From Prochlorococcus sp. AG-363-G03 (GTDB lineage Bacteria; Cyanobacteriota; Cyanobacteriia; PCC-6307; Cyanobiaceae), in assembly GCA_003280265.1 (NCBI GenBank), contig QCFJ01000008.1, positions 1 to 42,998 of the forward strand: a DNA stretch of 42,998 bases, in the 5' to 3' direction. Shown here in pieces: positions 19,563 to 35,244 of the stretch. Both the position numbers and the translations under genes were made by a program. Within the stretch, counting starts at the first letter, position 1. Every line of letters begins with the position of its first letter. The notes beneath the pieces were generated by a model. It saw nothing but the letters and a program-made list of their open reading frames with translations, searched no databases and was not told the DNA's origin.

Positions 19563-20627
19563 GTGATTGCTTCTGTAAATCAAATTTCATTATTAAAGCC
19601 GGATGATTGGCATCTGCATTTGAGAGATGGAAAGATTTTGAAAGGTGTTTTAAGGCACACAGCAAATGTATTTTGCCGTGCTATAGTCATGCCTAATCTT
19701 GATCCGCCAATAACTACTTTAGACCAAGCAATAGGATATAAAAAAAGAATTATACAGTCTATCCCTGAAGGTGTCTCTTTTACTCCATTGATGACAGCAT
19801 ACCTTACGGATGATATGCCTCCAGAGGTTTTAGAAAGAGGCTTTGGAGAAGGTGTCTTCCATGGGGCAAAGCTCTATCCAGCGAATGTGACAACTAATTC
19901 CTCGTATGGGGTTACAGATATAAGAAAAATCGACAATCTATTTGAGACGATGGAAAGAATTGGTATGCCATTATTGATTCATGGAGAAGTGACCGATCTC
20001 AATATTGATGTGTTTGATAGAGAAGCTGTTTTTATTGAGCGTCATCTTGAACCATTATTAAGAAGATTTTCATCACTTAAAGTTGTTTTAGAGCACATCA
20101 CGACAATCGATGCGATTGACTTTGTAGAAAGCAGTCAATTTGATATAGCAGCTACAATCACACCTCATCATTTACATATCAATCGAAATGCAATGTTCAA
20201 TGGTGGGTTAAGGAGTGATTTTTATTGCTTGCCTACAGCTAAGCGTGAAATACATCGTATTGCCCTTAGAAAAGCGGCTACTAGTGGTAAATCCTGCTTT
20301 TTCCTTGGAACTGATTCAGCACCTCATACCCGTAAGTTTAAGGAAAGTTCATGTGGATGTGCAGGAATCTTTAATGCTCCTTTCGCTTTGGAAAGCTATA
20401 TGAAAGTATTTGAAGAAGAAAATGCCCTGGACAAGTTTGAAGCTTTTTCAAGTATTAATGGAGCTACTTTTTATGGATTACCTCTAAATACAGAGCGGAT
20501 AACTTTGGTTAAAGAAAATATTTCCGTACCACAATTTGTTGATGTTGGATTAGATGGTGATCCTAATGATTTTGTAAAACCATTTCATTCAGGAGAAACT
20601 CTTGGCTGGGTTGTACGAGATGTTTAG
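19563..20627 (+). CDS. pyrC: Dihydroorotase, class II
   Basis: This 354-residue enzyme closes carbamoyl-aspartate to dihydroorotate in pyrimidine synthesis. The metal motif DWHLHLRDG (HxH) is near the N-terminus. VVMPNLDPP-like IVMPNLDPPI, GAKLYPANVTTNSSYG with the bridging Lys, HGEV, LEHITT and GTDSAPH complete the amidohydrolase signature. The start is GTG at 19563, as no in-frame ATG is close and homology begins immediately after it. In Prochlorococcus pyrC is followed by tRNA-Leu and then, as I recall, ndhL and trpA. Here the tRNA is interrupted by phage DNA. Confidence 0.95.
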   Translation: MIASVNQISLLKPDDWHLHLRDGKILKGVLRHTANVFCRAIVMPNLDPPITTLDQAIGYKKRIIQSIPEGVSFTPLMTAYLTDDMPPEVLERGFGEGVFHGAKLYPANVTTNSSYGVTDIRKIDNLFETMERIGMPLLIHGEVTDLNIDVFDREAVFIERHLEPLLRRFSSLKVVLEHITTIDAIDFVESSQFDIAATITPHHLHINRNAMFNGGLRSDFYCLPTAKREIHRIALRKAATSGKSCFFLGTDSAPHTRKFKESSCGCAGIFNAPFALESYMKVFEEENALDKFEAFSSINGATFYGLPLNTERITLVKENISVPQFVDVGLDGDPNDFVKPFHSGETLGWVVRDV

Positions 20628-20767
20628 CTAGATTGGTGAATGATTCTTTCCATGGTTATTTAAATCTAGATATACTTAAGAGTACTGATTTAAGCACATA
20701 CGTTTACGCTAATATGTAAATGCCTTAGAGTTGAATCCTGGCATTGTAACAATCGTTGCTATCACTG
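20628..20767 (+). promoter_or_regulatory. Spacer between pyrC and tRNA-Leu
   Basis: This host intergenic segment of 140 bases should hold the end of the pyrC transcript and the tRNA promoter. CTAGATT and AATCTAG-type repeats are present but far apart, and I see no classical terminator. I could not define a promoter with proper -35/-10 spacing. Confidence 0.3.
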
Positions 20768-20810
20768 GGGAGTGTGGCGGAATTGGTAGACGCACCAGAC
20801 TTAAAATCTG
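20768..20810 (+). tRNA. tRNA-Leu(UAA), 5' part only, cut at the phage junction
   Basis: The sequence folds as the 5' part of a tRNA: acceptor strand GGGAGTG, U8, a GCG/CGC D-stem with GGTAGA loop, then anticodon strand CCAGA and loop CTTAAAA with anticodon TAA. The 3' anticodon strand is TCTG, and the next base (C, 20811) breaks pairing where G is expected. No variable arm, T-arm or 3' acceptor strand follows. The 3' half is missing on this side, and the gene as seen cannot give a tRNA. Confidence 0.85.
20768..20810. other. Putative left attachment site (attL core) of the phage
   Basis: The 43 bases from the tRNA 5' end through the anticodon stem are the likely core shared by attB and attP, since tRNA sequence stops exactly here and phage sequence continues. 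Cyanophage P-SSP7 was reported to carry a 42-bp identity to host tRNA-Leu immediately next to its integrase. The length and location match that. The left limit of the core cannot be set without the phage attP or attR. Confidence 0.7.
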
Positions 20811-20838
20811 CACACTCATCATTCATACATACATGTAC

Positions 20839-20867
20839 AGCATCAGCTTAATCGGCTGGTGCTTTTT
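20839..20867 (+). terminator. Rho-independent terminator at the phage left edge
   Basis: AGCATCAGC (20839-20847) pairs with GCTGGTGCT (20855-20863), one T-G wobble, 7-base loop, followed directly by T(4). It lies 28 bases inside the phage. In the phage circle it would end transcription arriving from the integrase side, and in the lysogen it would stop host tRNA-promoter transcription from entering the RNA polymerase gene. Confidence 0.8.
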
Positions 20868-20947
20868 AATTCTTAGGTAAACGTTAGTTATACCAAGGTG
20901 GATAGAGATATACAAATTACCCATACTCAATCTGATGACTTTAATTT
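20868..20947 (+). promoter_or_regulatory. Leader of the phage RNA polymerase gene
   Basis: Eighty AT-rich bases lie between the terminator and the RNAP ATG at 20948. A promoter used by host sigma factors would be expected here, and TTATACC and GATATAC are weak -10 candidates. No Shine-Dalgarno is seen; the start is preceded by GACTTTAATTT. Confidence 0.3.
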
Positions 20948-23293
20948 ATGCCTACACCAGCTCAAATTGATGAGCAAATTAACCATGAACGTGATGCAAT
21001 TGCTCAAGGATTAAAACGTCTTAGAGATCAAACTAAAACATTAGAAGGTAAAGAATATGCTTCAGCTTCTGTCTATGGAGTAACAACAATAGATGCCTTA
21101 TTACCTTTAGTTGTTGATAGAATTAAGGAAACAAATCTAACAATTCATAAAGGTCATAATGGACAATCATTTAAGGAAATTAAACAATATCTAGCTGATA
21201 TTGAACCATTAGCAGCTGCAGCTATAACCTGTAAAATTACTATTGATAAGGTATTTGGATATAAAGAAGGCAGCAATCAAATACAAAATGTATGTGATGC
21301 GATAGGTAAAGGTGTAGAGAATGAGTGTCAAATGAGGCACTATGAAAGACATGCTCCAGGTTTACTAGCAACTCTTAAAAAGAATTACTGGCATAAATCC
21401 ATAGGTACAGGTCAGAAAGTTGTGGTGATTCAAACACTTATGAATCGCTATGAAGTACAAAAATGGGAAACATGGGGTCGAGGAAATAGGGTCAAGCTTG
21501 GTGGCTGGTTACTCAGCTGTGTAATAAACACAAGTCAGTGGTTTACTCAAGAAGTAAGACAAGTTGGTCGTAAGACAAATAGTTATGTAGTACCTACACC
21601 TGAGTTCTTAGCCATCAAAGATGAGGTCATGCACAATGCTGAACTCTTCAGTCCTCTCGCTTGGCCAATGCTTATTGAGCCAAATGACTGGACACCTGAA
21701 AAGCCCGGTGGCTACTTGCTTAACGAGATAATGAAGGGTCACGATATGGTTCGCAGATCTGAGGTGTCCCGTATACAGGGAGAAAGACCTTACGAGTTTT
21801 TAAACAAGATTCAAAAAGTTGCTTACACCCTGAACCCGTTCACTGTTGGAGTAGCTGAAAAGCTTGAAAAGGATGGTACAACTGTTGGTAAATTTCAACC
21901 AATCTTTAACCATGACTTACCTAATAAACCTATTGATATAGCTGAGAATAAAGAAGCTAGAAAACAATACTGTAGAGATGCAGCGAAGGTACAAAACCTT
22001 CAAGCTCAAGAGTTTAGGAAGTCTTGTCGTACAAGGATGACGATGGAGACAGTAGAACGCTTTAAGAATAAAGAGAAGTTCTATATTCCATGGTCTTTTG
22101 ATTACCGAGGGAGGGTTTATCCCATCCCTGCATTTCTAACTCCACAGGATACAGACTTTGGAAAAAGTCTTATAAGATTTGCTGATGAATCCTTTATGGA
22201 TGAGGAGGCAGAGAAATGGCTAAGGTTTCAGCTTGCTACTACATTCGGTCTTGATAAAGAGACTATCAATGAGAGACTTGTTTGGACTTATGAGAATGAA
22301 TGGTTAGTAGAAGAAATTGCTACTGATCCAATAGGTCAACGTCATGAATGGGAGAATGTTGAGGAACCTTGGCAATTCTTAGCTGCATGTGATGAGTTCT
22401 ATCACTGTGTAATCAAGAGAGATCGAATAAGTACTGGTTTACCAATAGCCATAGACGCTACATGTAGTGGTCTACAGATACTGGCAGGTCTCGCTAAAGA
22501 TAAATCAACAGCTGAACTTGTTAATGTATTACCATCAGATAAGCCACAAGATGCTTATAAAGTAATAGCTGAAACATCTAAACCAAATATACCTTTAAAG
22601 CTACGTCCTGACTGGGATCGTAAATGTACAAAGCGTACAGTAATGACGATACCCTACAATGCAAAACCGTTCAGCAATAGATCGTACATTAGAGAAGCTT
22701 TAAAGGATAAGGATATAGAGATTGAGAAGGAAGAGTTAACTCAAACAGTTAACGCTGTTAGAGATGCAATGAATGTCATAGTCCCTGGACCAATGAGGGT
22801 TATGAAATGGATAGAATCAGAGGTTAGTAATGCTATTAAGCGTGGAGCTACCGAACTTAAATGGGTAACTCCATCAGGTTTTATTGTCTCTCAACAAATC
22901 TTTAAGAAAGAATTTGAACGCATAACTTTACGAGTCTTAGGAGAAGCAAGGCTAAAGATGAAAGTTGCTACTGGAGATAGTGCTGAGGTTGATAAGGCTA
23001 GACACAAAGCTGCTACAGCTCCCAACCTCATTCACTCTCTAGATGCCAGTCTCTTATGTCTATCAGCTCTAGACTTTAACCACCCTATAGCTCTCATACA
23101 CGATAGTGTCTTATGTAGAGCTACAGATATGAGCGAGCTATCCAGAATTGTCAGAGAAAAATACATGCACCTGTTTGCAGAGCATGATTACCTAACAGAT
23201 TTCGCTAACCAGATAGGTGCGGAAACTGAACCACCGATTATTGGCGACCTTAAACCTGAGTCAGTAATTGAATCCACTTACTTTTTTTGTTAA
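20948..23293 (+). CDS. Phage single-subunit (T7-type) RNA polymerase
   Basis: This 781-residue polymerase transcribes middle and late phage genes, equivalent to T7 gp1 (883 residues) but shorter in the N-terminal promoter-binding domain, as in other cyanopodoviruses. Catalytic motifs are intact: PIAIDATCSGLQILAGL (first catalytic Asp), KRTVMTIPYNAKPFSNRSYI (the Lys and Tyr of the O helix), NLIHSLDASLL and IALIHDSVLC (second catalytic Asp in HDS). WSFDYRGRVYPIPAFL is also typical. It is the first phage gene after the junction. Its stop overlaps the ATG of the SSB gene (TAATG). Confidence 0.96.
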   Translation: MPTPAQIDEQINHERDAIAQGLKRLRDQTKTLEGKEYASASVYGVTTIDALLPLVVDRIKETNLTIHKGHNGQSFKEIKQYLADIEPLAAAAITCKITIDKVFGYKEGSNQIQNVCDAIGKGVENECQMRHYERHAPGLLATLKKNYWHKSIGTGQKVVVIQTLMNRYEVQKWETWGRGNRVKLGGWLLSCVINTSQWFTQEVRQVGRKTNSYVVPTPEFLAIKDEVMHNAELFSPLAWPMLIEPNDWTPEKPGGYLLNEIMKGHDMVRRSEVSRIQGERPYEFLNKIQKVAYTLNPFTVGVAEKLEKDGTTVGKFQPIFNHDLPNKPIDIAENKEARKQYCRDAAKVQNLQAQEFRKSCRTRMTMETVERFKNKEKFYIPWSFDYRGRVYPIPAFLTPQDTDFGKSLIRFADESFMDEEAEKWLRFQLATTFGLDKETINERLVWTYENEWLVEEIATDPIGQRHEWENVEEPWQFLAACDEFYHCVIKRDRISTGLPIAIDATCSGLQILAGLAKDKSTAELVNVLPSDKPQDAYKVIAETSKPNIPLKLRPDWDRKCTKRTVMTIPYNAKPFSNRSYIREALKDKDIEIEKEELTQTVNAVRDAMNVIVPGPMRVMKWIESEVSNAIKRGATELKWVTPSGFIVSQQIFKKEFERITLRVLGEARLKMKVATGDSAEVDKARHKAATAPNLIHSLDASLLCLSALDFNHPIALIHDSVLCRATDMSELSRIVREKYMHLFAEHDYLTDFANQIGAETEPPIIGDLKPESVIESTYFFC

Positions 23294-23862
23294 TGAGAAA
23301 CATCCACGTCACACCTGATCCCGTAGTACTAGAGGGTTATCAGGCTGTAATGAAGCCAAGTCAGTATGGCTATAGCTTGAGAGCTGTAGTAGGACAAGAC
23401 TTAATTGATAAGTTAGAAGAAGAGAGAACTGATTGTCTTAAGTGGGCTGAGTCTAAGCTCAAGAACCCTAAGAGATCATCACTAAAACCAGAACCTTGGG
23501 AGGAAGTATCCGATGGAAAATACATCATTAAGTTCTCATGGTCAGAAGATAAAAGACCCCCAGTGGTCGATACAGAAGGTACTCCTATTACTGACGCTAA
23601 TACTCCTGTCTACGCTGGAAGTACTGTAAAGCTAGGCTTTATACAGAAGCCTTACCTACTACGAGATGGTATCTCTTATGGTACGTCTCTGAAGCTCTCT
23701 GGAGTGCAGGTAGTGACCTGTCAGGGAGGTGCAGGTGTTGATACAGGAGACTTAGATCAAGCTAGTGTTGCTGAGTTATTCGGCAAGACATCTGGCTTCA
23801 AGGCTGGAGAACCTAACGTAGAGGCAGCTGGTACACCTAGCTCAGTAGAAGATGACTTCTAA
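23293..23862 (+). CDS. Single-stranded DNA-binding protein, T7 gp2.5-like
   Basis: This 189-residue protein corresponds by position (between RNA polymerase and endonuclease I) to T7 gp2.5, which coats single strands and recruits polymerase and helicase. The C-terminal tail is short and acidic and ends SVEDDF. T7 gp2.5 likewise ends in an acidic tail with a terminal Phe, which is needed for protein contacts. The start at ATG 23293 overlaps the RNAP stop. The upstream TTG at 23287 would add two residues and is less likely. The core is divergent, so the identity rests on order, size and tail. Confidence 0.85.
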   Translation: MRNIHVTPDPVVLEGYQAVMKPSQYGYSLRAVVGQDLIDKLEEERTDCLKWAESKLKNPKRSSLKPEPWEEVSDGKYIIKFSWSEDKRPPVVDTEGTPITDANTPVYAGSTVKLGFIQKPYLLRDGISYGTSLKLSGVQVVTCQGGAGVDTGDLDQASVAELFGKTSGFKAGEPNVEAAGTPSSVEDDF

Positions 23863-24212
23863 TGTTCAGGTCTGAACTAGAAGAGAAGGTCTCAGATTTA
23901 CTGTGTGAATTAAAGATTGATTATGAATATGAGCCAACAAGGATTCCATATGAAATACAACATAATTATTCACCAGATTTCCTATTACCCAATGGAATTT
24001 ATTTAGAATGTAAAGGATATTGGGATAGTGCAGACAGAAGAAAGGTCAAGAATGTAGTGGAGCAACATCCAGAGATAGATCTAAGGATGGTCTTTCAAGC
24101 TCCCTATAACAAGATCTCAAAGAAATCAAAGACAACGTACGCGCAATGGTGTGATCGTCACAAGATCCCGTGGTGTGCGTACCACAATATACCAATCGAA
24201 TGGCTCACATAG
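23862..24212 (+). CDS. Endonuclease I (Holliday junction resolvase), T7 gp3-like
   Basis: This 116-residue nuclease resolves branched DNA and helps degrade host DNA. The PD-(D/E)xK motif is visible as YSPDFLLPNG followed by IYLECKGYW (Asp, Glu, Lys), with an upstream helix Glu in SELEEKVSDLL. Length is close to the 149-residue T7 enzyme core. Its ATG shares the last base of the SSB stop, and its end overlaps the primase start (24200) by 13 bases. Confidence 0.93.
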   Translation: MFRSELEEKVSDLLCELKIDYEYEPTRIPYEIQHNYSPDFLLPNGIYLECKGYWDSADRRKVKNVVEQHPEIDLRMVFQAPYNKISKKSKTTYAQWCDRHKIPWCAYHNIPIEWLT

Positions 24213-25798
24213 AGAGCGAATTTGTACGACATACAGCATGTGAAAACTGTGGCAGTAGTGATGCAAAGTCTGAGTATTCAGATGGACATACCTACTGCTT
24301 TGTATGTCACACCCGCACTGCTGGGAATGCAGAAAATACACACACTCATCAAATGTCTAACAATGTACAACTCAAAGGATCTGCCGTACGGCTGCAACGA
24401 AGAGGTATTAGTGAACAGACGAACCAAAAATACAAGATCTTCCGAGACGGAGAACTTCTACGCTTCCATTATTTCACGAGCGACGGAATACTTCAGGGAG
24501 CAAAAGTAAAGACCAAACAGAAAGACTTCTACTATGAAGGGATTACTACCGATACTCTTTTTGGTCAGCATTTATTTCCTAGTAGCGGTAAACGGATTAT
24601 CGTTTATGAAGGTGAATTAGACGCTGCCTCTGGCTATGAGGCAATGACAGGTTGGCCACACGTTAGCCTCCCTCATGGAGCTGCCTCAGCCAAGAAAGAT
24701 ATACAGAAACAGATACCATTATTCCAAGGCTATGAGGAAATTGTACTCTTCTTTGATGGAGATAATGCTGGAAGAAAAGCAGCGGAAGATGCTGCAAGCG
24801 TACTACCACCAGGGAAGGTCAAAATTGCAAGGCTCGACTCCTATAAAGATGCTTCGGAAGCTTTGCAAGCGAATGACTCAGAGGCAATAAGAAGAGCGAT
24901 ATGGGATGCAAAGCCATATCAACCTGACGGAATTGTAGATGCAAAGACACTACTAAATGAAGTCACCACCCCACAGAAAGAATCAGACCATGACTACCCA
25001 TACGAAGGACTTAATAAGAAATTACGAGGGATCAGGTACGGATCACTTATTACATTTACTAGCGGCACTGGCCAAGGAAAATCAACCATCACCCGTGAAA
25101 TTGCAACTCACTTGCTCAACAAAGGTGAGAGAGTTGGATTCTTGGACCTTGAGGCAAGTAATAGACAAACAGCATTAGGTCTTATGTCTACTGCTGTAGG
25201 CAAACCATTACACATAGGTGAACATAGTGAGCAAGAACTCAAAGAGTATTTTTCTAATACCATTGCTAATTGGAATCTCTACATGTTTGATGGCTTTGGT
25301 AGTTATGATCCAGACGTGGTTTACAATCGGATCGAATACCTTGCCAGTGGACTGGAGTGTCGTCTTATATTCCTAGACCATTTGTCCATATTATTAAGTG
25401 GACTTGATGGGGATGAGAGACGAATGATAGATCAGACGATGACTCGTCTAAGAAGTTTAGTTGAACGTACAGGTATAACTCTATTTCTAGTTAGTCACTT
25501 AAGAAGAGCAAGTAATGACAGAAAGTCTTCGGAAGAAGGAGGACGCGTATCCCTCTCTATGTTACGAGGGTCTCATAGTATTTCTCAAATCAGCGATGCA
25601 GTCATCGCTTTGGAACGAGACCAACAGAGCGAAGAAGGAAGAAGTGATACGACTCTTAGAGTCCTTAAAAATCGTTATTCAGGCGAAACAGGAATAGCTA
25701 CAAAATTGACTTATGACTTATCCAACTGCAGATTTAGTGAGAATGAGACTACGGAACCATCCTTTCTACGTGGGACCAGCGAAACCACGGATTTTTGA
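24200..25798 (+). CDS. Primase-helicase, T7 gp4-like
   Basis: This protein of 532 residues primes lagging-strand synthesis and unwinds the fork. An N-terminal zinc ribbon (Cys14, Cys17, Cys33, Cys36) is followed by a TOPRIM domain (VYEGELDAASGYEAM, FFDGDNAGRKAAEDA). The DnaB-like helicase domain has Walker A TSGTGQGKSTITRE and Walker B RLIFLDHLSILLSG, with SHLRRASNDRKS and a C-terminal arginine-finger region. ATG 24200 (MAHIESEF) was chosen because the zinc motif follows directly. A longer frame from 24170 lies inside gp3. Confidence 0.96.
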   Translation: MAHIESEFVRHTACENCGSSDAKSEYSDGHTYCFVCHTRTAGNAENTHTHQMSNNVQLKGSAVRLQRRGISEQTNQKYKIFRDGELLRFHYFTSDGILQGAKVKTKQKDFYYEGITTDTLFGQHLFPSSGKRIIVYEGELDAASGYEAMTGWPHVSLPHGAASAKKDIQKQIPLFQGYEEIVLFFDGDNAGRKAAEDAASVLPPGKVKIARLDSYKDASEALQANDSEAIRRAIWDAKPYQPDGIVDAKTLLNEVTTPQKESDHDYPYEGLNKKLRGIRYGSLITFTSGTGQGKSTITREIATHLLNKGERVGFLDLEASNRQTALGLMSTAVGKPLHIGEHSEQELKEYFSNTIANWNLYMFDGFGSYDPDVVYNRIEYLASGLECRLIFLDHLSILLSGLDGDERRMIDQTMTRLRSLVERTGITLFLVSHLRRASNDRKSSEEGGRVSLSMLRGSHSISQISDAVIALERDQQSEEGRSDTTLRVLKNRYSGETGIATKLTYDLSNCRFSENETTEPSFLRGTSETTDF

Positions 25799-25934
25799 AA
25801 ACAGCGAGTATGAACATCCATGGTATGAACATGCTGAGGAACCACCAAAATTAAATAAACCAGAGCCACCCACCGAGGCGGCAAAGAAGAAAGCAAAGTT
25901 TAAAGACAAGACTTATAAGTGGATGAAGAAATGA
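25713..25934 (+). CDS. Small hypothetical phage protein between primase and DNA polymerase
   Basis: This 73-residue frame overlaps the end of the primase gene (86 bases if it starts at ATG 25713, 56 if at 25743). It stops in an ATGA overlap with the DNA polymerase start at 25931. The protein is Pro/Glu/Lys-rich (EEPPKLNKPEPP) and ends in a basic helix AAKKKAKFKDKTYKWMKK. I do not recognise it. It fills the spacer exactly, which supports it being real. Confidence 0.6.
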   Translation: MTYPTADLVRMRLRNHPFYVGPAKPRIFENSEYEHPWYEHAEEPPKLNKPEPPTEAAKKKAKFKDKTYKWMKK

Positions 25935-26452
25935 CACTCGTGTTTGACCTAGAAACAAATGGTCTACTGCACGATGTAACACGTATTCATTGCATAGCGA
26001 TATACGACTCCACTACAGATGAGATAGAAACGTACAACGATGAAAAGAATAACAAATACTCCATTACTGAGGGACTTAATAAGTTACTTGTTGCTGACAC
26101 GATTGTTGGTCATAACATTATTGGTTTTGACATCCCGTGTATTAGCAAACTATATAACTTTTTCACTCCCCGTTCTCGTGTTGTTGACACTCTTCTTCTA
26201 TCACGTCTATACCACCCAAATATCTATGACATAGACCATAAGCACAAGTGGAGACACATGCCACTACAGCTCTATGGAAGACATAGCTTAGAGAGTTATG
26301 GCTACCGTCTAGGTGAATATAAAGGGGAGTTTGGTAAGACAAGTGATTGGTCAGAGTGGAGTCAAGAAATGGAAGATTACTGCGCTCAAGACGTAGAAGT
26401 TACAAAGAAATTATGCGACCACTTTCACCCCTACCTGACTGGTGCTCGCTAG
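25931..26452 (+). CDS. DNA polymerase gp5, 3'-5' exonuclease part
   Basis: This frame of about 173 residues carries only the proofreading exonuclease domain of a T7-type family A polymerase: Exo I MTLVFDLETNGLL, Exo II VGHNIIGFDIP and Exo III MEDYCAQDVEVTKKL (Tyr-x3-Asp). The reading frame ends with TGAR at TAG 26450-26452. The polymerase domain continues in the -1 frame, so exonuclease and polymerase are separate ORFs here. Inserting one C in the CCCC run (26429-26432) would fuse them as HFHPLPDWCSLEHS. It could be a real split, a frameshift mutation, programmed slippage or a sequencing error. Confidence 0.9.
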   Translation: MTLVFDLETNGLLHDVTRIHCIAIYDSTTDEIETYNDEKNNKYSITEGLNKLLVADTIVGHNIIGFDIPCISKLYNFFTPRSRVVDTLLLSRLYHPNIYDIDHKHKWRHMPLQLYGRHSLESYGYRLGEYKGEFGKTSDWSEWSQEMEDYCAQDVEVTKKLCDHFHPYLTGAR

Positions 26453-27675
26453 AGCATTCAGTTGCACAAATACTCACCCAACAAGAAATACATGGATGGC
26501 ATTTTGATGAACGCTCTGCATGGGAACTTGAGTCGTCTCTCCGACAAGAATTGGAAGACTTTACTCAACTACTTCGAAACAGGCACCCTTTCGTTGCAGG
26601 ATCAGTATTTAATCCTAAACGAAATAATCGGACCCAAGGCTATGTCGCTGGTGCTGAGAGCATCCGACTCAAAGAACTTAACCCAACATCAAGAGACCAT
26701 ATCGCATGGGTACTGACAACACACTATGGCTGGAAGCCGTCATCAATAAGCTCGAACGGCAAGCCCGTAGTAGACGAGATCGTCTTAAAGGAAATTGGGA
26801 CGGATATAGCTCTTCAATTTCTCCGATGCTTGGAACTGAAGAAAGCATTAGGAATGATATCCGAAGGCGTGAACGCATGGCTGAAGCTATGTACGACATC
26901 TAGCCGAATACACCATCATTGTTCAGTCGCTACAAATACTTTTAGAGCAAGCCACCGAAAACCAAATTTAGCACAGGTACCAAGTGATGAAGAATTTAGA
27001 AAACTATTTACCGCCACGCCGGGAATGGTTATGTGCGGGGCTGATCTTAGTGGCATTGAACTCAGGATGCTCGCGCACTACCTCGGTAGATATGATTCAG
27101 GACGTTATGCAGAAATCCTACTCAACGGAGACATTCACCAAGTCAATGCCGACAAAATTGGGATTACCAGACGTGCCGTTAAAACAGTAACGTATGCCTT
27201 TTTATATGGAGCAGGAGATGCAAAGATCGGACTCTCAGTCGATAAACAACTATCACCAAATAAGGCAAGAGCTACAGGAAAAGAAGTACGTGCCGCGTTC
27301 ATCGAAGCCATTGATGGACTTTCAGAGCTACTACAGGCTGTTAAGAAGCGGTCTGCTTCAGGCTCGATCATGGCTATCGATGGAAGAAAAATCTATGTAG
27401 ATAGCACTCACAAAGCTCTTAACTATTTACTCCAATGCTCAGCCGGAGTTATCGCTAAGCGTTGGCTATATATCACACATGAAAATTTACCACCAACTGC
27501 TCACCAGCTGGCATTCGTACATGATGAACTTCAATATGAATGTAAAGAAGAGGATCATATAGATCTACTTTTTTTACTGGAGTTAGCTGCTGCTGAAGCA
27601 GGTGAGTACTACAACCTCAGAATACCTATAGCAGCTGAAGCAAAAGCAGGAGCTACGTGGGCTGAGGTCCACTAA
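26413..27675 (+). CDS. DNA polymerase gp5, polymerase part
   Basis: This family A polymerase domain of about 420 residues would replicate phage DNA. Motif A is CGADLSGIELRMLAHYLG, motif B RRAVKTVTYAFLYGAGDAK and motif C LAFVHDELQYE, all with catalytic residues intact. The N-terminal residues LEHSVAQILTQQEIHGWHFDE match the start of the T7 polymerase linker region. ATG 26413 is the nearest plausible start, 40 bases inside the exonuclease ORF, with only a weak purine-rich upstream sequence. The open frame also extends back to ATG 26347. See the exonuclease entry for the frame problem. Confidence 0.9.
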   Translation: MRPLSPLPDWCSLEHSVAQILTQQEIHGWHFDERSAWELESSLRQELEDFTQLLRNRHPFVAGSVFNPKRNNRTQGYVAGAESIRLKELNPTSRDHIAWVLTTHYGWKPSSISSNGKPVVDEIVLKEIGTDIALQFLRCLELKKALGMISEGVNAWLKLCTTSSRIHHHCSVATNTFRASHRKPNLAQVPSDEEFRKLFTATPGMVMCGADLSGIELRMLAHYLGRYDSGRYAEILLNGDIHQVNADKIGITRRAVKTVTYAFLYGAGDAKIGLSVDKQLSPNKARATGKEVRAAFIEAIDGLSELLQAVKKRSASGSIMAIDGRKIYVDSTHKALNYLLQCSAGVIAKRWLYITHENLPPTAHQLAFVHDELQYECKEEDHIDLLFLLELAAAEAGEYYNLRIPIAAEAKAGATWAEVH

Positions 27676-27677
27676 CT

Positions 27678-28415
27678 ATGAAATTATTAATTGATTGCGA
27701 TTTCGTTGTATATAAATGTTGTGCAGCTGCAGAGACAGAGATTGATTTTGGAGATGACGTTATTGTTGTTACCTCTACATTCAAAGATGCTTACAGCTGT
27801 GTCAAACGTGAACTCAACAGAATTGCTAACAAGTTTGGTTCCTTTGATGAAATGATACTGTTCTTTAGTGACAGTAAAAACTTTCGTAAGGATATACAAA
27901 AGGATTACAAAGGACACAGAAATCGCAAGAAGCCTTGCGCCTATCGACGTGTCATCAACAAATTATCTGAAGAATATTCAGTAATAAGAATGCCTACCTT
28001 AGAGGCAGACGATGCAATGGGAATTTATGCCACAAAAAATACAGGCAATATCATTGTTAGTCCAGATAAGGATATGAAACAAATACCGGGGATGTTATGG
28101 AACTTTGAAGAGTCCACACTCATCAAACCAGAAGAAGGTGCTAAGTGGCATCTAATTCAAAGTTTGGCTGGAGATAATACCGACGGCTATGCAGGTGTGC
28201 CGGGAATTGGAGTTAAAAGAGCTGTTGCTCTGTTTGAAGAGAAGGGATATAGCTGGAAAACAGTTGTAGAAGCATTCAAAGAAAAGGGACTATCGGAAGA
28301 TGTTGCCTTAACGAATGCACGTCTAGCAAGAATACTAACTACGGAGGATTATGACCACGAAAAAAGGGAACCCATACTATGGAATCCCTCAGCCGATTAC
28401 AAAGTTAACAGTTGA
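27678..28415 (+). CDS. 5'-3' exonuclease, T7 gp6-like
   Basis: This 245-residue FEN/5'-nuclease-family enzyme would remove RNA primers and degrade host DNA. Acidic metal ligands are visible in MKLLIDCDFVVY, LEADDAMGIYA and VSPDKDMKQIPG. The helix-hairpin-helix DNA-binding motif is GYAGVPGIGVKRAVALFEE, preceded by SLAGDNTDG. It follows DNA polymerase with a two-base gap, exactly the T7 order of gp5 then gp6. Confidence 0.93.
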   Translation: MKLLIDCDFVVYKCCAAAETEIDFGDDVIVVTSTFKDAYSCVKRELNRIANKFGSFDEMILFFSDSKNFRKDIQKDYKGHRNRKKPCAYRRVINKLSEEYSVIRMPTLEADDAMGIYATKNTGNIIVSPDKDMKQIPGMLWNFEESTLIKPEEGAKWHLIQSLAGDNTDGYAGVPGIGVKRAVALFEEKGYSWKTVVEAFKEKGLSEDVALTNARLARILTTEDYDHEKREPILWNPSADYKVNS

Positions 28416-28653
28416 GCAAGATTTAAAACTACGACTCATAAAGGATTCAATAGAGAATCCAGATACACCTAGAGAAGACGTTAACACCGTCTTCCTAGCA
28501 CTCCAAAAGCAGAATTTTGTTCTAGCTAATAGTCTTACAAATCTACTAGAGAAATGGCCGAAACCACCAATAATGAAGGACCACAATATTACAGGCGTGG
28601 AAGAATCCAACCATGGGATTATGTTCGTGATCAAGAACTCAACTTCCACTTAG
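28351..28653 (+). CDS. Small hypothetical phage protein
   Basis: This 100-residue frame has a strong Shine-Dalgarno, GGAGG, just before ATG 28351, and overlaps the exonuclease end by 65 bases. It also runs 100 bases into the DUF3310 gene. The middle part is helical and amphipathic (TVEQDLKLRLIKDSIENP, VNTVFLALQKQNFVLAN). I do not recognise a family. The good ribosome binding site is the main support. Confidence 0.6.
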   Translation: MTTKKGNPYYGIPQPITKLTVEQDLKLRLIKDSIENPDTPREDVNTVFLALQKQNFVLANSLTNLLEKWPKPPIMKDHNITGVEESNHGIMFVIKNSTST

Positions 28654-28841
28654 GAAATGTAATTAAATATGTCACCAGAGCTGGTCACAAGTTTGATGAC
28701 ATTGACGATCTAGAAAAAGCAATCCACTACTTACAGAATGAAGTCGAATTTAGAACAAGCCAAAGAGTTCAGGAACTCGTTCAATGTGAAGGACTCAAAG
28801 AGTCTCAGATCGAGGAATATGCAAAAGAATTTGATCGTTGA
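28554..28841 (+). CDS. DUF3310 protein
   Basis: This 95-residue protein carries the DUF3310 signature: PQYYRRGRIQPWDYVRDQ, NFHLGNVIKYVTRAGHK and DLEKAIHYLQNEVEF. DUF3310 proteins are common in phage nucleotide-metabolism clusters, and related domains occur in T7 gp1.7-type nucleotide kinases. The exact activity here is not known. It lies next to MazG-like and ribonucleotide reductase genes, supporting a role in the dNTP supply. Its 3' part overlaps the MazG-like gene by 104 bases. Confidence 0.85.
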   Translation: MAETTNNEGPQYYRRGRIQPWDYVRDQELNFHLGNVIKYVTRAGHKFDDIDDLEKAIHYLQNEVEFRTSQRVQELVQCEGLKESQIEEYAKEFDR

Positions 28842-29112
28842 GGAATTCAAAGAATTTTTAGAGGCAGAGGGAATGCTGTTTAGGAACAGTGCAGCTCTGC
28901 ATGAGGATGCTATTAAAGAACTCAGTGATCTCGTATATGTCTGCTATCAGTATGCAGCAAATATGGGGTGGGATTTAGACGAAGCTCTACGTCGAGTCCA
29001 TAGAAGTAATATGTCAAAACTAGATGAGGATGGAAAGCCTACATATAGAGCTGACGGAAAAGTATTAAAGAGCGCAAATTATCAACCACCTACATTAAGC
29101 GATCTTGTCTAA
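28738..29112 (+). CDS. MazG-like nucleotide pyrophosphohydrolase
   Basis: This 124-residue all-alpha NTP-PPase has the Mg-binding motifs LIVEEFKEFLEA (ExxE-type) and IKELSDLVYVCYQYAA (ELxDxxY), plus a C-terminal phage-typical segment (DGKVLKSANYQPPTL). Such enzymes convert dNTPs to dNMPs or degrade alarmone-like nucleotides. The start at 28738 keeps the conserved N-terminal helix (EQAKEFRNSFNV). A shorter start at 28819 (with GAGG upstream) would lose it. The start lies within DUF3310; the stop overlaps the nrd start (TAATG). Confidence 0.85.
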   Translation: MKSNLEQAKEFRNSFNVKDSKSLRSRNMQKNLIVEEFKEFLEAEGMLFRNSAALHEDAIKELSDLVYVCYQYAANMGWDLDEALRRVHRSNMSKLDEDGKPTYRADGKVLKSANYQPPTLSDLV

Positions 29113-30494
29113 TGACAAATTTAATATCTAGAACTGGAAGAGTTCAGAGCTGGATAGATAATCCAGAATCACGTCTACCCGTATCATGCACTGTCTTCGT
29201 TGTAGAAGACTCTATGGAGGGACCAAATGGCATCGAAGCATCCTGGAGATTTGTATCACATGCTCTCAGAAATGGAGCAGGTGTCGCAGTCCACTTGTCG
29301 AAACTTAGACCCAAAGGAACTGAAAGCATTAAAGGAAATGACAGACTTGTTGCGTCAGGACCAGTCTCCTTTGGAAGAATCTACTCAACCCTAAATGAAA
29401 TACTCAGACGGGGTGGCACCTACCGTAATGGTGCTTGCGTGTTGCATCTTGACTTGGATCACCCTGACATTATTGAATTCATCACGACCCCACGTTCCGA
29501 ACTTCCATGGGTTAAACGATGCGTCAACATTAACGAAGTGAAGTGGGAAGGTGCTAGTCAGGATGTAAAAGACGCAGTGATATATGGCATCAAATCAGGT
29601 GACATATGGTTAAACAAAACTAAGTACGATAAAAATGGAAAAAGAATCAGAGGCAACGTATGCCTTGAAGTTTACCTGCCATCACGAGGAACTTGCCTCC
29701 TCCAGCACGTTAATCTCGGTGCCTGTACAATCGCCGACGTGTCAAAAGGTTTTGTTGAGGGTATGCGAAGTTTGTGCAACCTCCATAGCAAAACAGGCAT
29801 TGGAAGTTCTGGAGAATATCTCCCCTCGGAGACCGACAGGCAGGTTGGACTTGGATGCCTTGGGTTAGCAAACCTACTAAGGCAAAACAACATCACCTAC
29901 GAACAGTTTGGTGATGCACTACAAGCAGTAAATGATGGCATACCTGGACTAGGTACAGCTGGATTATTAGCAGCAGAATTTTATAAAGGCATTCAGGGTG
30001 CGGCTGAAGTTGCTAGAGAATTTAATATGGAGAGAGCATTTGCTATAGCTCCAACCGCAAGCTGTTCATATCGCAGTAAAGACAGAGAAGGCTTTACTTG
30101 CACACCTGAAATCGCACCTCCTATAGCTAGGAGTGTCGATAGAGATTCAGGTACATTTGGTGTACAGACATATGAATATGGTGATGTAGAGATCGCCTCA
30201 GAAGTTGGTTGGGATGCCTATAAGAAGGTAGCTGACCAGTTGATGTATATGTTTAATCACACAGGGCTTCTTCACGGATATAGCTTTAACTCTTGGAGTG
30301 ATGTTATAACCTACGACGAACAGTTCGTTGAAGAGTGGCTAGATAGTCCCCAAACTTCACTTTATTATGCTTTGCAAGTACACGGTGATGTTCAGGATAA
30401 GTCCAGTGTTTATGCTGCCTTAGATGAAGATGACGTACAAGACTACTTGCAAGGGATTCTAAACAACGAACCCCAATGCGATTGTCAAGAATGA
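29112..30494 (+). CDS. Ribonucleotide reductase large (alpha) subunit, class I cyanophage type
   Basis: This 460-residue catalytic subunit reduces ribonucleotides for phage DNA. It is much shorter than cellular NrdA (about 750) and has no ATP-cone. Active-site elements are LPVSCTVF (first redox Cys), NVCLEV (Asn-x-Cys-x-Glu, thiyl radical Cys), HVNLGACT (second redox Cys), the tandem tyrosines in SLYYAL used for radical transfer in class I enzymes, and a C-terminal CDC pair. P-SSP7-type enzymes were first called class II; the tandem Tyr and the adjacent small subunit support class I. The stop overlaps the next ATG (ATGA). Confidence 0.9.
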   Translation: MTNLISRTGRVQSWIDNPESRLPVSCTVFVVEDSMEGPNGIEASWRFVSHALRNGAGVAVHLSKLRPKGTESIKGNDRLVASGPVSFGRIYSTLNEILRRGGTYRNGACVLHLDLDHPDIIEFITTPRSELPWVKRCVNINEVKWEGASQDVKDAVIYGIKSGDIWLNKTKYDKNGKRIRGNVCLEVYLPSRGTCLLQHVNLGACTIADVSKGFVEGMRSLCNLHSKTGIGSSGEYLPSETDRQVGLGCLGLANLLRQNNITYEQFGDALQAVNDGIPGLGTAGLLAAEFYKGIQGAAEVAREFNMERAFAIAPTASCSYRSKDREGFTCTPEIAPPIARSVDRDSGTFGVQTYEYGDVEIASEVGWDAYKKVADQLMYMFNHTGLLHGYSFNSWSDVITYDEQFVEEWLDSPQTSLYYALQVHGDVQDKSSVYAALDEDDVQDYLQGILNNEPQCDCQE

Positions 30495-31210
30495 ACCCAT
30501 ATGAAAAGTTACTCAATAGAAAGAGAACATGGACTCCTGTCCAAACTACAGGAGGAAAACTTAAAGAGGGAGCTGAAGAGACCATCTACCGTGCTTTGGC
30601 AGTACGGCACATGGAGCTTCCAGTCGGGAATTATATCCAAGAATCTCTTGAGAAAAATGTACCTGATTCTGCAAGGAAACTTCTAGAGTCAAACGTCAAG
30701 GATGAGATCAGACATGATCTCGCTCTTGGCTACATAACCAACGCTATAGGCGTTGATGAGAAGTCTGAGAAAGAAGCCTTCTTACTTAGGGATGCGTGGA
30801 ATGCACATCCTGATCACATGATTACAAAAGCCTTAGTTATTGAACGTGCTATATTCTTTGTTCTACTGCCTATGTTTAGGTTTAATGGTGATGCTGGTCT
30901 CAGAACGGTATCAGCTGATATTTCCAGAGACGAACAGATACACGTGGCCACTAATAGCCTTGTATGTCACGATATGGGCTTATCTTGGAGTCAATCTCTG
31001 GATAAACTTAGGAAAGCCACCATTAACTGGATCATGGAGCCACTAGGTAAGAATACCTATGGCGATAAATATTTAAGCAAAAAATTTTGGCTGGATTCTA
31101 GCGATAATCTTATGTATAACGGCAAGGCTCCAGAGCTTTCGGAAACTAAGTCAGCAAGAATGCCAGCGTTCTTTGAACATAGTAATGTCAATCTCCCCCA
31201 ATACTCTTGA
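30491..31210 (+). CDS. Ribonucleotide reductase small (beta) subunit, lacking the radical tyrosine
   Basis: This 239-residue ferritin-like protein has two ExxH metal motifs, Glu72-x2-His75 in VKDEIRHDLALGY and Glu148-x2-His151 in SRDEQIHVATN, plus Glu118 (VIERAIFF) and a Glu in GAEETIYRAL as further ligands. The position four residues after the first His, Tyr122 in E. coli NrdB, is Leu79. The radical must then sit on the metal cluster or another residue, as in non-tyrosyl class I subclasses. It is shorter than NrdB (375). It is coupled to the alpha subunit by an ATGA overlap. Confidence 0.85.
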   Translation: MNPYEKLLNRKRTWTPVQTTGGKLKEGAEETIYRALAVRHMELPVGNYIQESLEKNVPDSARKLLESNVKDEIRHDLALGYITNAIGVDEKSEKEAFLLRDAWNAHPDHMITKALVIERAIFFVLLPMFRFNGDAGLRTVSADISRDEQIHVATNSLVCHDMGLSWSQSLDKLRKATINWIMEPLGKNTYGDKYLSKKFWLDSSDNLMYNGKAPELSETKSARMPAFFEHSNVNLPQYS

Positions 31211-31373: not shown

Positions 31374-32630
31374 ATGACTAATTTATTTTCAGGTAACCCT
31401 ACTGGTTCTCAACGCAGAGGAAGGGTACAAGATTGGCTTAACTGGAATATGCCACTCCTTACAGGTAGAGAAGCTGATTATGGTGGATCGCCTACAGGAA
31501 CACCGGGTCAAGGTGGTAGTAACTACTGGATAGAGGCTTTAACTGGTAACACAGCTGCAAACCAAGCAGATCAAGCTTCTGCAGCAGCACACAGTGGAGG
31601 TTGGCAAGGTTGGTTAGCAGATAGTCTAAAAAATGCAAACGCAGCCGAGAGAGCAGCTGGTACATCAGATTGGAATCCGTTTGGTTGGACGAACACCGAA
31701 ACAGGAACTCGTACTAACTTCGATCCAAATACTCCTTTCTTAAAATTAAGTGACCTAAGATCAACAAGTGGTTTCACCGACCCTAGTGGTAGTAACTATA
31801 CAGCTGCTGGTGACTTCCAAAGTAGGAAATATGATCCAGCAGCTGCTTTAGCAGCAGCTACCGCAGCTAATTACATGCCTGCAGGATCAGGTAATTGGAA
31901 TAACTACGCAAACGAGGCATCAGAAGCTGCTACCGCTGCCACTTCCTCTGCTGCTACTTCAGGAGCAGTTACTACCCATGCTGATGGTTCTATTCAAACC
32001 AATAATGGAACAACAGGTGGAAATAACAACATTACAACAGGTGCTCCTTCAGTAGATGATATAAAAAATTATCTAGGTAGTGCCTATCAGTTGTATCTAG
32101 ATAGAGATCCTGTTTATAATGATGACTTTACCGACACCGCTGACTATTGGATAAAACAAGTACAAGATAGATTTGCTAACAATGAATTTGGTGGTGAAAA
32201 TGATACATGGCAAGATTGGTTAAGCAAAAGTATTAGACTTGGTTCAGAGTATACGGATAAGTTTAATACTGGTACTGGTACTGGTGGGAATAATACTATA
32301 GATACTTCACAGTTTCTAACCCAACAAGGACTTAGTGATTGGTGGAATGCACTGGATAAATCAGCATTCACTGGAAACCAGTCTAGTGGAACCCAGACTG
32401 GTGGTATGGATGACTTCATGCAGTTCATGATGTTTATGAGCATGATGAGACCCCAAGGTATGGGAGGCGGTAGTCAATATGGATACGGTGGTATGAATCC
32501 GGGTGGTGTTCAATCTGCCTATAACCCAATGGATGACTTACAAGGAATGATGGATGCCTTTAACACATTTAAAGGTGGTACAACAGTTAACACAGGTACA
32601 ACTACAGGTACAACTACAGGTACAACATAA
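31374..32630 (+). CDS. Low-complexity Gly/Asn/Thr/Ala-rich phage protein before the portal
   Basis: This 418-residue protein is not a family I recognise. It has an Ala-rich region (about 155-205), many GT/GN/TG steps, a Met-rich stretch (DDFMQFMMFMSMMRPQGMGG) and a C-terminal TGTT repeat. By position it corresponds to the region of T7 gp7.3/gp7.7 just upstream of the portal. A role as a virion-associated or tail-adhesion protein is a guess. The 3' end contains a 12-bp tandem DNA repeat (32592-32627). Confidence 0.75.
   Translation: MTNLFSGNPTGSQRRGRVQDWLNWNMPLLTGREADYGGSPTGTPGQGGSNYWIEALTGNTAANQADQASAAAHSGGWQGWLADSLKNANAAERAAGTSDWNPFGWTNTETGTRTNFDPNTPFLKLSDLRSTSGFTDPSGSNYTAAGDFQSRKYDPAAALAAATAANYMPAGSGNWNNYANEASEAATAATSSAATSGAVTTHADGSIQTNNGTTGGNNNITTGAPSVDDIKNYLGSAYQLYLDRDPVYNDDFTDTADYWIKQVQDRFANNEFGGENDTWQDWLSKSIRLGSEYTDKFNTGTGTGGNNTIDTSQFLTQQGLSDWWNALDKSAFTGNQSSGTQTGGMDDFMQFMMFMSMMRPQGMGGGSQYGYGGMNPGGVQSAYNPMDDLQGMMDAFNTFKGGTTVNTGTTTGTTTGTT
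32592..32627 (+). repeat. Tandem repeat of a 12-bp unit, three copies
   Basis: ACAGGTACAACT occurs at 32592-32603 and 32604-32615, and with a last-base change at 32616-32627, just before the stop codon. It encodes TGTT repeats. Copy number could vary by slippage without disturbing the frame. Confidence 0.9.
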
Positions 32631-32635
32631 ATACA

Positions 32636-34204
32636 ATGACAGCAAAAACTAGGTATGATTATTTATCAGGCGAACGTACCCAGTTTCTAGACGAGGCAGA
32701 ACAAGCGTCAGAATTAACTCTTCCATATTTAATCTTAAAGGATCAATACACCAAGGGGATGAGGCATCTTCCTACACCTTGGCAGAGTGTTGGTGCAAAA
32801 TGTTCAGTGACATTAGCTGCAAAATTAATGCAAGCTATGATCCCTGTACAAACCAGCTTCTTCAAGTTACAGGTAGATGAAAGTCAACTTGGTCAGGAAT
32901 TTGGTCCACAGATTAAATCAGAACTAGATTTATCTTTTGCAAAGATTGAACGCACTATCTTGGAGGCTATTGCAGCTTCCAATGATCGTGTTGTTGTGCA
33001 TGAAGCTCTTCTACATCTTGTAGTAGCAGGTAATGCACTTATCTTTATGGGTAAGGATGGTCTGAAGTTATTTCCGCTTAACCGCTACGTTGTAGAACGA
33101 GATGGTAACGGCAATGTGATTGAAATAATCACAAAGGAAACAATTGCTAAAAAATTAATAGAAGATCAACTACCAGAAGATGTACTTAATCAGTACGACA
33201 CAGTAGTTGATGGATCTGATGATTCAGTTGAGGAGTGCGACATCTACACCCACGTCACACGAGACAACAACAGATACGTCTGGCATCAGGAAGTACATGG
33301 AAAAATACTAGAGAAATCCTACGGGAAAGCCCCTGTTGATGTAACACCTTGGTTAGCACTGAGATTTAATTCAGTGGATGGAGAGGATTATGGACGGGGA
33401 AGAGTCGGCCAGTTTATGGGTGACTTAAAATCATTAGAGTCACTATCTCAAGCCCTAGTGGAAGGTAGTGCAGCCGCTGCAAAGGTCGTCTTTACAGTAT
33501 CTCCTAGCTCTACGACTAAACCTCAAACCCTAGCCAACGCTGGGAACGGTGCAATCGTGCAAGGGAGACCTGATGACATAGGAGTCGTACAGGTAGGAAA
33601 GACTGCTGACTTCAAAACAGCATTTGAAATGATGCAACAACTAGAACGTCGTATTAATGATGCGTTCTTAGTTATGCAAGTCAGACAAAGTGAACGTACA
33701 ACAGCGGAAGAGGTACGCCTCACACAGATGGAGTTAGAGCAACAGTTAGGTGGGTTATTCTCACTACTTACTACTGAGTTCTTACTTCCATATTTAAGTA
33801 GAATACTTAATCAATTTCAAAAGTCTGGAAAGATACCACGTCTACCAAAGGATATTGTTAAACCTACTATAGTAGCTGGTGTGAATGCACTAGGTCGTGG
33901 TCAGGATAGAGAAAGCTTAGGTCAGTTCTTACAGGTCGTAGCTAATACAATGGGTCCAGAGGCTGTACAGAAGTTCATCAATCCAGAGGAAGTAATTAAA
34001 CGATTAGCAGCTGCATCAGGTATTGATGTATTGAATCTAGTAACTTCAATGCAAGAGATACAAGCAAGAGAACAGCAGCAACAACAAATGGCTATGCAGC
34101 AACAACAGGCAGAGAATCAAACTGCAATGATGAAGACTCCAATGATGGACCCTTCTAAGAACCCTGCATTAGCACCACAAGATACACCACCTGAACAAGT
34201 ATGA
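32636..34204 (+). CDS. Head-tail connector (portal) protein, T7 gp8-like
   Basis: This 522-residue protein matches T7 gp8 (536) in size and place. It begins MTAKTRYDYLSGERTQFLDEAEQASELTLPYLI, containing the family hallmark R-T-x-FL-x-RA/EQ-x-SxLTLPYL-type stretch, and includes WQSVGAKCSVTLAAKLMQAM and ERTTAEEVRLTQMELEQQLGG. It forms the dodecameric ring through which DNA enters. A Gln/Met-rich C-terminus is typical. It overlaps the scaffold start by four bases (ATGA). Confidence 0.95.
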   Translation: MTAKTRYDYLSGERTQFLDEAEQASELTLPYLILKDQYTKGMRHLPTPWQSVGAKCSVTLAAKLMQAMIPVQTSFFKLQVDESQLGQEFGPQIKSELDLSFAKIERTILEAIAASNDRVVVHEALLHLVVAGNALIFMGKDGLKLFPLNRYVVERDGNGNVIEIITKETIAKKLIEDQLPEDVLNQYDTVVDGSDDSVEECDIYTHVTRDNNRYVWHQEVHGKILEKSYGKAPVDVTPWLALRFNSVDGEDYGRGRVGQFMGDLKSLESLSQALVEGSAAAAKVVFTVSPSSTTKPQTLANAGNGAIVQGRPDDIGVVQVGKTADFKTAFEMMQQLERRINDAFLVMQVRQSERTTAEEVRLTQMELEQQLGGLFSLLTTEFLLPYLSRILNQFQKSGKIPRLPKDIVKPTIVAGVNALGRGQDRESLGQFLQVVANTMGPEAVQKFINPEEVIKRLAAASGIDVLNLVTSMQEIQAREQQQQQMAMQQQQAENQTAMMKTPMMDPSKNPALAPQDTPPEQV

Positions 34205-35049: not shown

Positions 35050-35244
35050 ATGACAGTTATAACCGAATACGGTAAACAAAACATTTTCGCTAAAGAACCA
35101 CCACTTGAAATTATGAACGAAAACGAAGAGAACTTTCTTATGGAGCAAGCCGAGAGAACTAATGGCCAACTAGCCATGCTTGGTTTCGTCGCTGCCATAG
35201 GCGCATACGTAACAACTGGACAAATCATTCCAGGTATTTTTTAA
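35050..35244 (+). CDS. hli: Phage high-light-inducible protein (Hli)
   Basis: This 64-residue single-helix chlorophyll-binding protein protects photosystems during infection. The CAB motif is AERTNGQLAMLGFVAAIGAY (Glu35, Asn38, Met43), with Gln40 at the place where most family members have Arg. The C-terminal TGQIIPGIF is the signature shared by phage Hlis and multi-copy Prochlorococcus hli genes. The N-terminal 30 residues are soluble and acidic. It lies 10 bases before psbA and is surely co-transcribed with it, as in P-SSP7. Confidence 0.95.
   Translation: MTVITEYGKQNIFAKEPPLEIMNENEENFLMEQAERTNGQLAMLGFVAAIGAYVTTGQIIPGIF

Follow-up and report, generated by a model that had tools for sequence, protein, structure and literature searches.

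T7-like cyanophages are usually treated as essentially lytic. Their integration at tRNA-Leu is already known from laboratory infections and metagenomic reads. The closest described system is P-SSP7 (Tiamatvirus), which infects Prochlorococcus MED4: its genes follow the T7-like order, it has int, an attP formed by the 5′ half of tRNA-Leu, a terminator hairpin and a phage RNA polymerase (RNAP) gene, and it carries psbA, hli, nrd and talC. P-SSP7 is known as a free phage whose integration in the course of infection has been shown by PCR (Shitrit et al. 2021, PMC8776855). The same study locates the cyanophage att site in the 5′ half of the tRNA and describes S-TIP37 and P-SSP7 junctions from PCR and short metagenomic reads; it gives metagenomic integration values of 1.6% and 0.003% for two Prochlorococcus attP groups. 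No stable lysogens were obtained there. According to its authors, no intact prophage occurs in cyanobacterial genomes, including hundreds of genomes from single cells, and they use this as an argument against lysogeny; for remnants of integration they cite Malmstrom et al. 2013. Cyanophage contigs assembled from metagenomes by Mizuno et al. 2013 (PMC3861242) likewise carry an integrase and an exact host tRNA-Leu match of 42 bp or 39 bp, but in the portion of that paper available to us these are free phage contigs (attP) with no integrated copy. Among the matches listed for the literature on prophages and integration of Prochlorococcus and T7-like cyanophages, titles and the opening lines of abstracts named no natural genome with a complete integrated T7-like cyanophage. 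Malmstrom et al. reportedly found a partial prophage in a Prochlorococcus single cell.

Here we describe a contig from a Prochlorococcus-like cell that appears to add a near-complete natural copy with both junctions to this picture. The DNA analysed, hereafter the window, spans contig C8 (42,998 bp) from end to end. The assembly it comes from has 61 contigs totalling 1,206,512 bases, with a completeness of 56.93% and a contamination of 0.54%. Gene content, low G+C and the genome sizes of genus-mates (1.6-2.0 Mb in those at least 90% complete) point to Prochlorococcus as the host, and the incompleteness hints at a single-cell origin. We consider it about 90% probable that the window holds one half, the left, of a T7-like cyanophage that was integrated into the host's tRNA-Leu(UAA) gene, most likely by the phage's own tyrosine integrase. 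The locus shares with S-TIP37 and P-SSP7 the target gene, the tRNA half and the type of junction, but it lies in a natural genome, in which both junctions and most of the phage are present. It differs from P-SSP7 in its integrase (27% identity over 247 aa), in an exact shared core of only 26 bp, and in a promoter-like pattern that P-SSP7 lacks at the common spacing. As in the partial prophage attributed to Malmstrom et al., phage DNA is apparently integrated in a wild Prochlorococcus; that prophage was reportedly partial.

The host-phage junction in the window

The left part of the window consists of host genes, among them those for the RuBisCO large subunit, CsoS2, carboxysomal carbonic anhydrase and DnaA. 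The last of them, pyrC, lies upstream of the tRNA at an approximately equal distance in 24 empty-site loci of genus-mates (Table 1). Identity to the tRNA begins at 20768 and ends after 20810, and ARAGORN found no complete tRNA in the window. From the terminator on, the RNAP gene and then T7-like phage sequence occupy the contig up to its end, 22.2 kb in all. The initial annotation had described this succession of pyrC and the 5′ part of tRNA-Leu(UAA) up to 20810, then a phage terminator, a T7-type RNA polymerase and about 22 kb of phage genes, and we confirmed it in place. It had also likened the phage to P-SSP7-like phages, for which it gave a 42-bp tRNA-Leu identity. The shared core is indeed present, but it measures 43 bp; and the phage is a T7-like cyanophage with an integrase, although not P-SSP7 proper, its RNAP being 58.6% identical to that of P-SSP7 and 69% identical to that of S-RIP1.

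Table 1. Features on either side of the host-phage junction, in window coordinates.
Feature	Position	Strand	Support or remark
Host pyrC (dihydroorotase)	19563..20627	+	TIGR00856, 439.6 bits vs cutoff 292.95; last host gene 5′ of attL
Host left arm	20628..20767	+	promoter-like TTTAC-N17-TAGAGT ~67 nt 5′ of tRNA start
attL core, tRNA-Leu(UAA) 5′ half, 43 bp	20768..20810	+	exact 43-bp block common to C8 and C25
Intrinsic terminator (predicted), phage right arm	20839..20867	+	hairpin and U-run; z = -3.5 for 20811-20880
T7-like RNA polymerase gp1, 781 aa	20948..23293	+	phrog_414, E = 2.1e-216; intact, no internal stops
ssDNA-binding protein gp2.5	23287..23862	+	72% to P-SSP7
Endonuclease gp3	23862..24212	+	69% to P-SSP7
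Primase/helicase gp4	24170..25798	+	phrog_239; 67% to P-SSP7
DNA polymerase, exonuclease part	25919..26452	+	split polymerase, as in P-SSP7; 66% to P-SSP7, 177/177 aa
DNA polymerase gp5 part	26347..27675	+	phrog_15971; 66% to P-SSP7
Exonuclease gp6	27678..28415	+	phrog_107
Nucleotide-kinase-like protein	28554..28841	+	phrog_236
MazG-like pyrophosphohydrolase	28738..29112	+	phrog_671
Ribonucleotide reductase	29112..30494	+	phrog_367; 71% to P-SSP7
PHROGs family "ribonucleotide reductase class Ia beta subunit"	30476..31210	+	phrog_6799
418-aa low-complexity protein	31374..32630	+	family search: no match
Portal (head-tail adaptor, gp8)	32636..34204	+	phrog_449
Scaffold gp9	34201..34995	+	phrog_1052
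High-light-inducible protein hli, matched stretch	35077..35241	+	56% to P-SSP7
psbA (photosystem II D1)	35255..36310	+	PF00124; 87% to P-SSP7
Major capsid protein gp10	37189..38313	+	phrog_27239
Tail protein gp11	38368..38985	+	phrog_446
Tail protein gp12	38985..41663	+	phrog_457
Phage protein, function unassigned, near contig end	41667..42644	+	phrog_20153

A second junction in the same assembly

When 141 bp spanning the junction were searched against the assembly, three places were found: C8 itself, contig C25, and a tRNA-Leu(CAA) gene on C24. C25 (19,196 bp) joins the other end of the phage to the trpA side of the host. Read in phage direction, it carries genes for an 887-aa protein with tail-fibre/virion matches and for terS and HNH homologues, then terL, talC, a gp0.7-like regulator, int, tRNA-Leu(UAA), ndhL, DUF3007 and trpA. 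What is apparently the phage's own integrase, a 338-aa tyrosine recombinase (PF00589), adjoins attR, where tRNA-Leu(UAA/taa) is complete and the target gene thus restored. The initial annotation had predicted an attR made up of int, core, tRNA 3′ half and ndhL/trpA, and C25 presents exactly this arrangement.

Neither C8 nor C25 contains an N. Exact matches of at least 18 bp between them, in either orientation, were limited to the 43-bp core and one 22-bp repeat elsewhere. A search of the 1.2-Mb assembly with 37 bp from the 43-bp core, allowing up to 3 mismatches, returned two places only, attL and attR, both of them exact (reversed-pattern control, 0 places). The uninterrupted tRNA-Leu(UAA) locus that had been named as half of the case against integration was accordingly not among the assembled sequences; the empty site (attB, pyrC-tRNA-ndhL) and attP were both unassembled, which is weak evidence by itself because the assembly is 57% complete.

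The 22-bp repeat lies at 21759-21780 of the window, inside the RNAP gene, and at 10455-10476 of C25 (L004), between terL and talC. Eighteen of its bases also occur in two IMG/VR relatives, inside RNAP in L010 and upstream of int in L013.

Comparison with empty sites and free phages

To place the two junctions we compared them with host loci and with phage loci. Among 30 host loci (L019-L048), 24 loci of genus-mates (L021-L044) represent the empty site, with pyrC, a core-bearing tRNA-Leu and ndhL side by side; L019 is C25 and L020 is the genus-mate G026, discussed below. L048 also has pyrC, tRNA and ndhL and was omitted from the arm comparison as more divergent. In the three loci that were set apart (L045, L046 and L047, from G010, G031 and G002), the tRNA-Leu(UAA) between pyrC and ndhL is inverted and its 5′ half has no match to the core pattern. 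The phage set comprised 163 loci (162 from IMG/VR and one genome contig, some contigs being repeated). The core was found in 13 of them, in 11 of which (10 distinct contigs) int and RNAP flank it, making it an attP; pyrC, ndhL or trpA occurred in 0/163.

Arms of 120 bp on each side of the core were then compared with the 24 host sites and 11 phage arms, and median identities were taken. The left arm of C8 was 86.9% identical to host and 61.6% to phage, and its right arm 47.9% to host and 74.0% to phage. For C25 the relation was the reverse, with a left arm at 56.8% to host and 78.9% to phage (best match 95.0, to L016) and a right arm at 85.8% to host and 46.6% to phage. A random control, one arm shuffled 50 times, gave 53.4%; the value of 61.6% lies above this, indicating some similarity between the left arms of host and phage as such. 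Joining the host flank of C8 to the host flank of C25 yields a complete tRNA-Leu(taa). Crossed-over identities of this kind are what integrase-mediated recombination leaves behind, the cross-over itself lying at some point within the 43 bp. We regard it as near certain that, in the assembly, positions 20768-20810 of C8 and their counterpart on C25 are the attL and attR of one integrated phage. Exact DNA-pattern scans of IMG/VR found an intact tRNA-Leu(UAA) in 0 contigs and a host-like left arm in three; the latter were rejected as attL sites, since RNAP and at least part of int surround the core, as in attP.

An assembler could in principle have produced both joins by swapping partners through the core, if the sample held unintegrated phage DNA (attP) alongside a chromosome with an unoccupied site (attB). 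The exact shared block of 43 bp is enough to mislead an assembler with a small k, and infected cells ("virocells") do occur in single-cell datasets of these bacteria, as reported by Berube et al. 2018 (PMC6122165), who assembled with SPAdes in single-cell mode (--sc) and warn that some of their assemblies represent infected cells. However, this account needs both joins to be wrong, and wrong in the recombinant pairing, while attB and attP are both unassembled and a lytic infection is expected to yield far more attP than attL. The largest k of SPAdes is 55 by default, longer than the 43-bp block, and this would apply if our assembly belongs to that single-cell set. Furthermore, a provirus in another genus (G299, below) has its attL and attR on a single contig of the assembly. 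We therefore consider a swap by the assembler improbable. A chimera in which whole-genome amplification linked phage and host DNA at random is less probable by far: MDA is known to yield chimeras, but here two separate joins would have to fall at the att core, both in the orientation predicted for an integrase. Site-specific integration with attL in the window, as the initial annotation had proposed, is well supported by attR on C25 and by the crossed flanks.

Gene content and relatives of the phage

About 37 kb of phage was recovered, ~22.2 kb on C8 and ~15.2 kb on C25. Of 35 P-SSP7 proteins queried, chosen from the 58 annotated, 23 were matched on the two contigs in the same order. Most of the matches were nearly full-length, including RNAP, gp2.5, gp3, gp4, both polymerase parts, gp6, nrd, portal, capsid, gp11, terS and terL; the best pieces of tail12 (566/976) and int (247/290) were partial, although both reading frames are open. 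The T7-type order RNAP-replication-portal-capsid-tail-terL is kept, together with the cyanophage genes psbA, hli, nrd and talC. Queries with P-SSP7 gp15 and gp16 gave no match in the whole assembly, in a search that had no positive control; their expected place is the gap that separates C8 from C25, and the two halves of the phage are thus unlinked in the middle. At the other end, terL-talC is followed on C25 by early genes and int; the linear record of P-SSP7 stops just after talC. The phage genome is therefore closed at this point, as it would be in a provirus or a concatemer.

For the integrase, identity was 93-94% to its counterparts on two uncultured IMG/VR contigs and about 24-27% to integrases from isolates, namely those in the 15 listed of 24 matching records and, in a separate comparison, that of P-SSP7. 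This is therefore a T7-like lineage with a type of integrase absent from the isolates compared, directed at the same half of the same tRNA. Among 400 genomes of the family, a full-length match to the integrase was found only in the present assembly (G000), with a remnant in G026; in the other 58 matching genomes the best matches were short, with E of 1e-5 or weaker. One IMG/VR entry of 22,050 bp, IMGVR_UViG_2667527367_000001, was identical to the window from 20948 over the 12,343 bases compared. It is the window half, already listed there, and it begins at the RNAP start codon and so lacks the junction. An IMG/VR entry with the terL of C25 itself (100%) was not found among the best 80 of the terL scan, a list cut at that length which could miss records from the present assembly.

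Cargo elements of the tycheposon type also target tRNA genes and are not known to carry virion genes. We rejected such an element here, as portal, capsid, tail and terL are all present. Among the early open reading frames scanned (at least 70 aa, a subset), no lysogeny repressor family was recognised. The only regulator found was gp0.7-like (phrog_9665; 47% to P-SSP7 gp0.7); its match to BilQ was weak (27.9 bits vs a cutoff of 125) and was judged not meaningful. The 418-aa open reading frame lies between the ribonucleotide reductase and portal genes, where P-SSP7 has only two short open reading frames.

Architecture of the attachment sites

Both sides of the core carry recurrent elements. On the left, the pattern TTTAC-N17-TAnnnT was found in 24/24 host sites and in 13/13 arms of this integrase lineage (C25, 11 IMG/VR contigs and the G026 scar), starting 65-69 bp before a reference position one base inside the tRNA gene; since the pattern was defined after several arms had been viewed, both counts are descriptive. 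The scan left out the core-bearing arms of L058, L063 and L068 and counted L033 once, and the relatives were scanned by pattern whereas the element in C8 was read by eye, its arm lying outside the scan. Shuffling of the phage arms only, with single-base composition alone preserved, gave the pattern in 0.6-1.6% of trials. At the common spacing it was present in neither P-SSP7 nor P-SSP2 (0/2).

On the right, a fully paired hairpin of 24-29 nt with a T-rich tail lies past the core in 15/16 right arms (C8, P-SSP7, P-SSP2 and 12 IMG/VR contigs), a count that allows G-U pairs and includes arms near-identical to one another. Shuffles were made for C8 only. The right arm of G299 has no hairpin of this kind, and a shorter hairpin with a T-run can be seen there by eye. 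Because the right-arm hairpins occur in several clearly different sequences, it is the structure, and not the sequence, that seems to be conserved.

From these elements we infer that attP may be a cassette composed of a promoter copy, the 5′ half of the tRNA and a terminator. The integrase, most likely the phage's own, would recombine attP with the 5′ half of the host tRNA gene. As the phage carries the 5′ half, a promoter must accompany it: at attR the phage copy of this half and its promoter-like element would be joined to the host 3′ half, so that the apparently single tRNA-Leu(UAA) gene would stay whole and expressed. The host promoter would stay at attL and fire into the phage terminator just 3′ of the core, which would stop host tRNA transcription ahead of the phage RNAP gene. 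This architecture offers a concrete hypothesis for how a phage might be kept silent without a repressor.

Apparent integrated relatives in other genomes

A T7-like phage of ~45 kb was found on a single contig (C12; L270, L272, L273) of G299, which belongs to the same family but to another genus. In this assembly it is flanked by murA (TIGR01072) on one side and by a fasciclin-domain gene on the other. Its attL is the 43-bp 5′ half of tRNA-Leu(CAG), and at its attR a 347-aa integrase (PF00589) is followed by an intact tRNA-Leu(CAG). The 5′ half of the tRNA at attR has one extra base, missing from attL and from two empty sites, as if that half had been supplied by the phage. The phage matched 22/35 P-SSP7 proteins, and its RNAP lies between terL and int. 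In two genus-mates of G299, murA adjoins an uninterrupted tRNA; the 5 kb covered in each showed no fasciclin gene, and only one flank is thus conserved.

The genus-mate G026 carries what appears to be a scar. At a contig end (C8 end, L049), pyrC is followed by a decayed core in which 6/43 bases are changed; the last base of this core and the 16 bases past it are identical to the right arm of attP in L063, an arm that runs into a T7-like RNAP gene. L063 was the sole locus of 14 searched with this arm match. At the end of another G026 contig (C5; L018, L050), the C-terminal 45 residues of an integrase (84% identity to the corresponding residues in the phages L078 and L083) lie 5′ of an intact tRNA-Leu(UAA). 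We read this as the trace of an integration that is old and was inherited, by a related T7-like phage now largely lost, although the evidence is suggestive only. A nearly identical phage-type arm is also seen on both sides of the scar.

Integration as such would also be compatible with a transient event during lytic infection of the cell. In Shitrit et al. 2021 (PMC8776855), integration at tRNA-Leu by cultured relatives did not give rise to lysogens, so a transiently integrated infected cell is possible; the integration value of 1.6% in that study belongs to the commonest Prochlorococcus attP group, and no repressor was recognised among the early open reading frames scanned. However, attL and attR alone were assembled, indicating that the integrated form dominated the sequenced DNA, and the decayed and hence inherited scar of a related integrase type in G026, together with the T7-like provirus of G299, counts against this reading. 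We rate a transient integration as a serious prospect, a little short of even odds; the integrated phage is at most a candidate for stable lysogeny.

The near-complete integrated copy, the single-contig provirus of G299 and the scar of G026 indicate that integration reaches sampled chromosomes and has been inherited at least once. As a tentative proposal, which we find somewhat doubtful in its full extent, T7-like cyanophages might form heritable integrated states in wild picocyanobacteria, with the attP cassette supplying a tRNA promoter at the same spacing and insulating the phage RNAP gene, a form of quieting that would need no repressor. With the exact junction sequences in hand, the question of lysogeny in these bacteria becomes directly testable.

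Other T7-like RNA polymerase genes

Matches to RNAP were found in 37/400 genomes of the family. The RNAPs of G299 (35% identity) and G065 (42%) both belong to genomes that carry T7-like phages. In G065, T7-like phage genes extend across much of a 42-kb contig (C3; L269, L274) that includes a 188-aa open reading frame with a phage-integrase domain and on which no host flank was identified. In 13 of the other 34 RNAP-positive genomes (G003, G127, G152, G294, G191, G166, G302, G118, G061, G332, G114, G245 and G182), the 8-40 kb around an RNAP of 26-31% identity gave no match to portal, capsid, tail or terL. These orphan genes were rejected as proviruses of the present kind; their surroundings gave single matches only: ssb (50%) in G182 (20 kb searched), gp0.7 in G302, a weak polymerase match in G118, weak scaffold matches in G127 and G332, psbA in G003 and hli in G061. 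The orphan RNAPs of G114 and G245 have in-frame stops, and that of G003 (C1, ~763440) lies ~0.6 kb from a gene for a 517-aa tyrosine recombinase. Lastly, a cyanophage-type RNAP with 68% identity was found in a contig (L055, NZHS01000063.1) that is binned as a Flavobacteriales MAG but is probably mis-binned phage.
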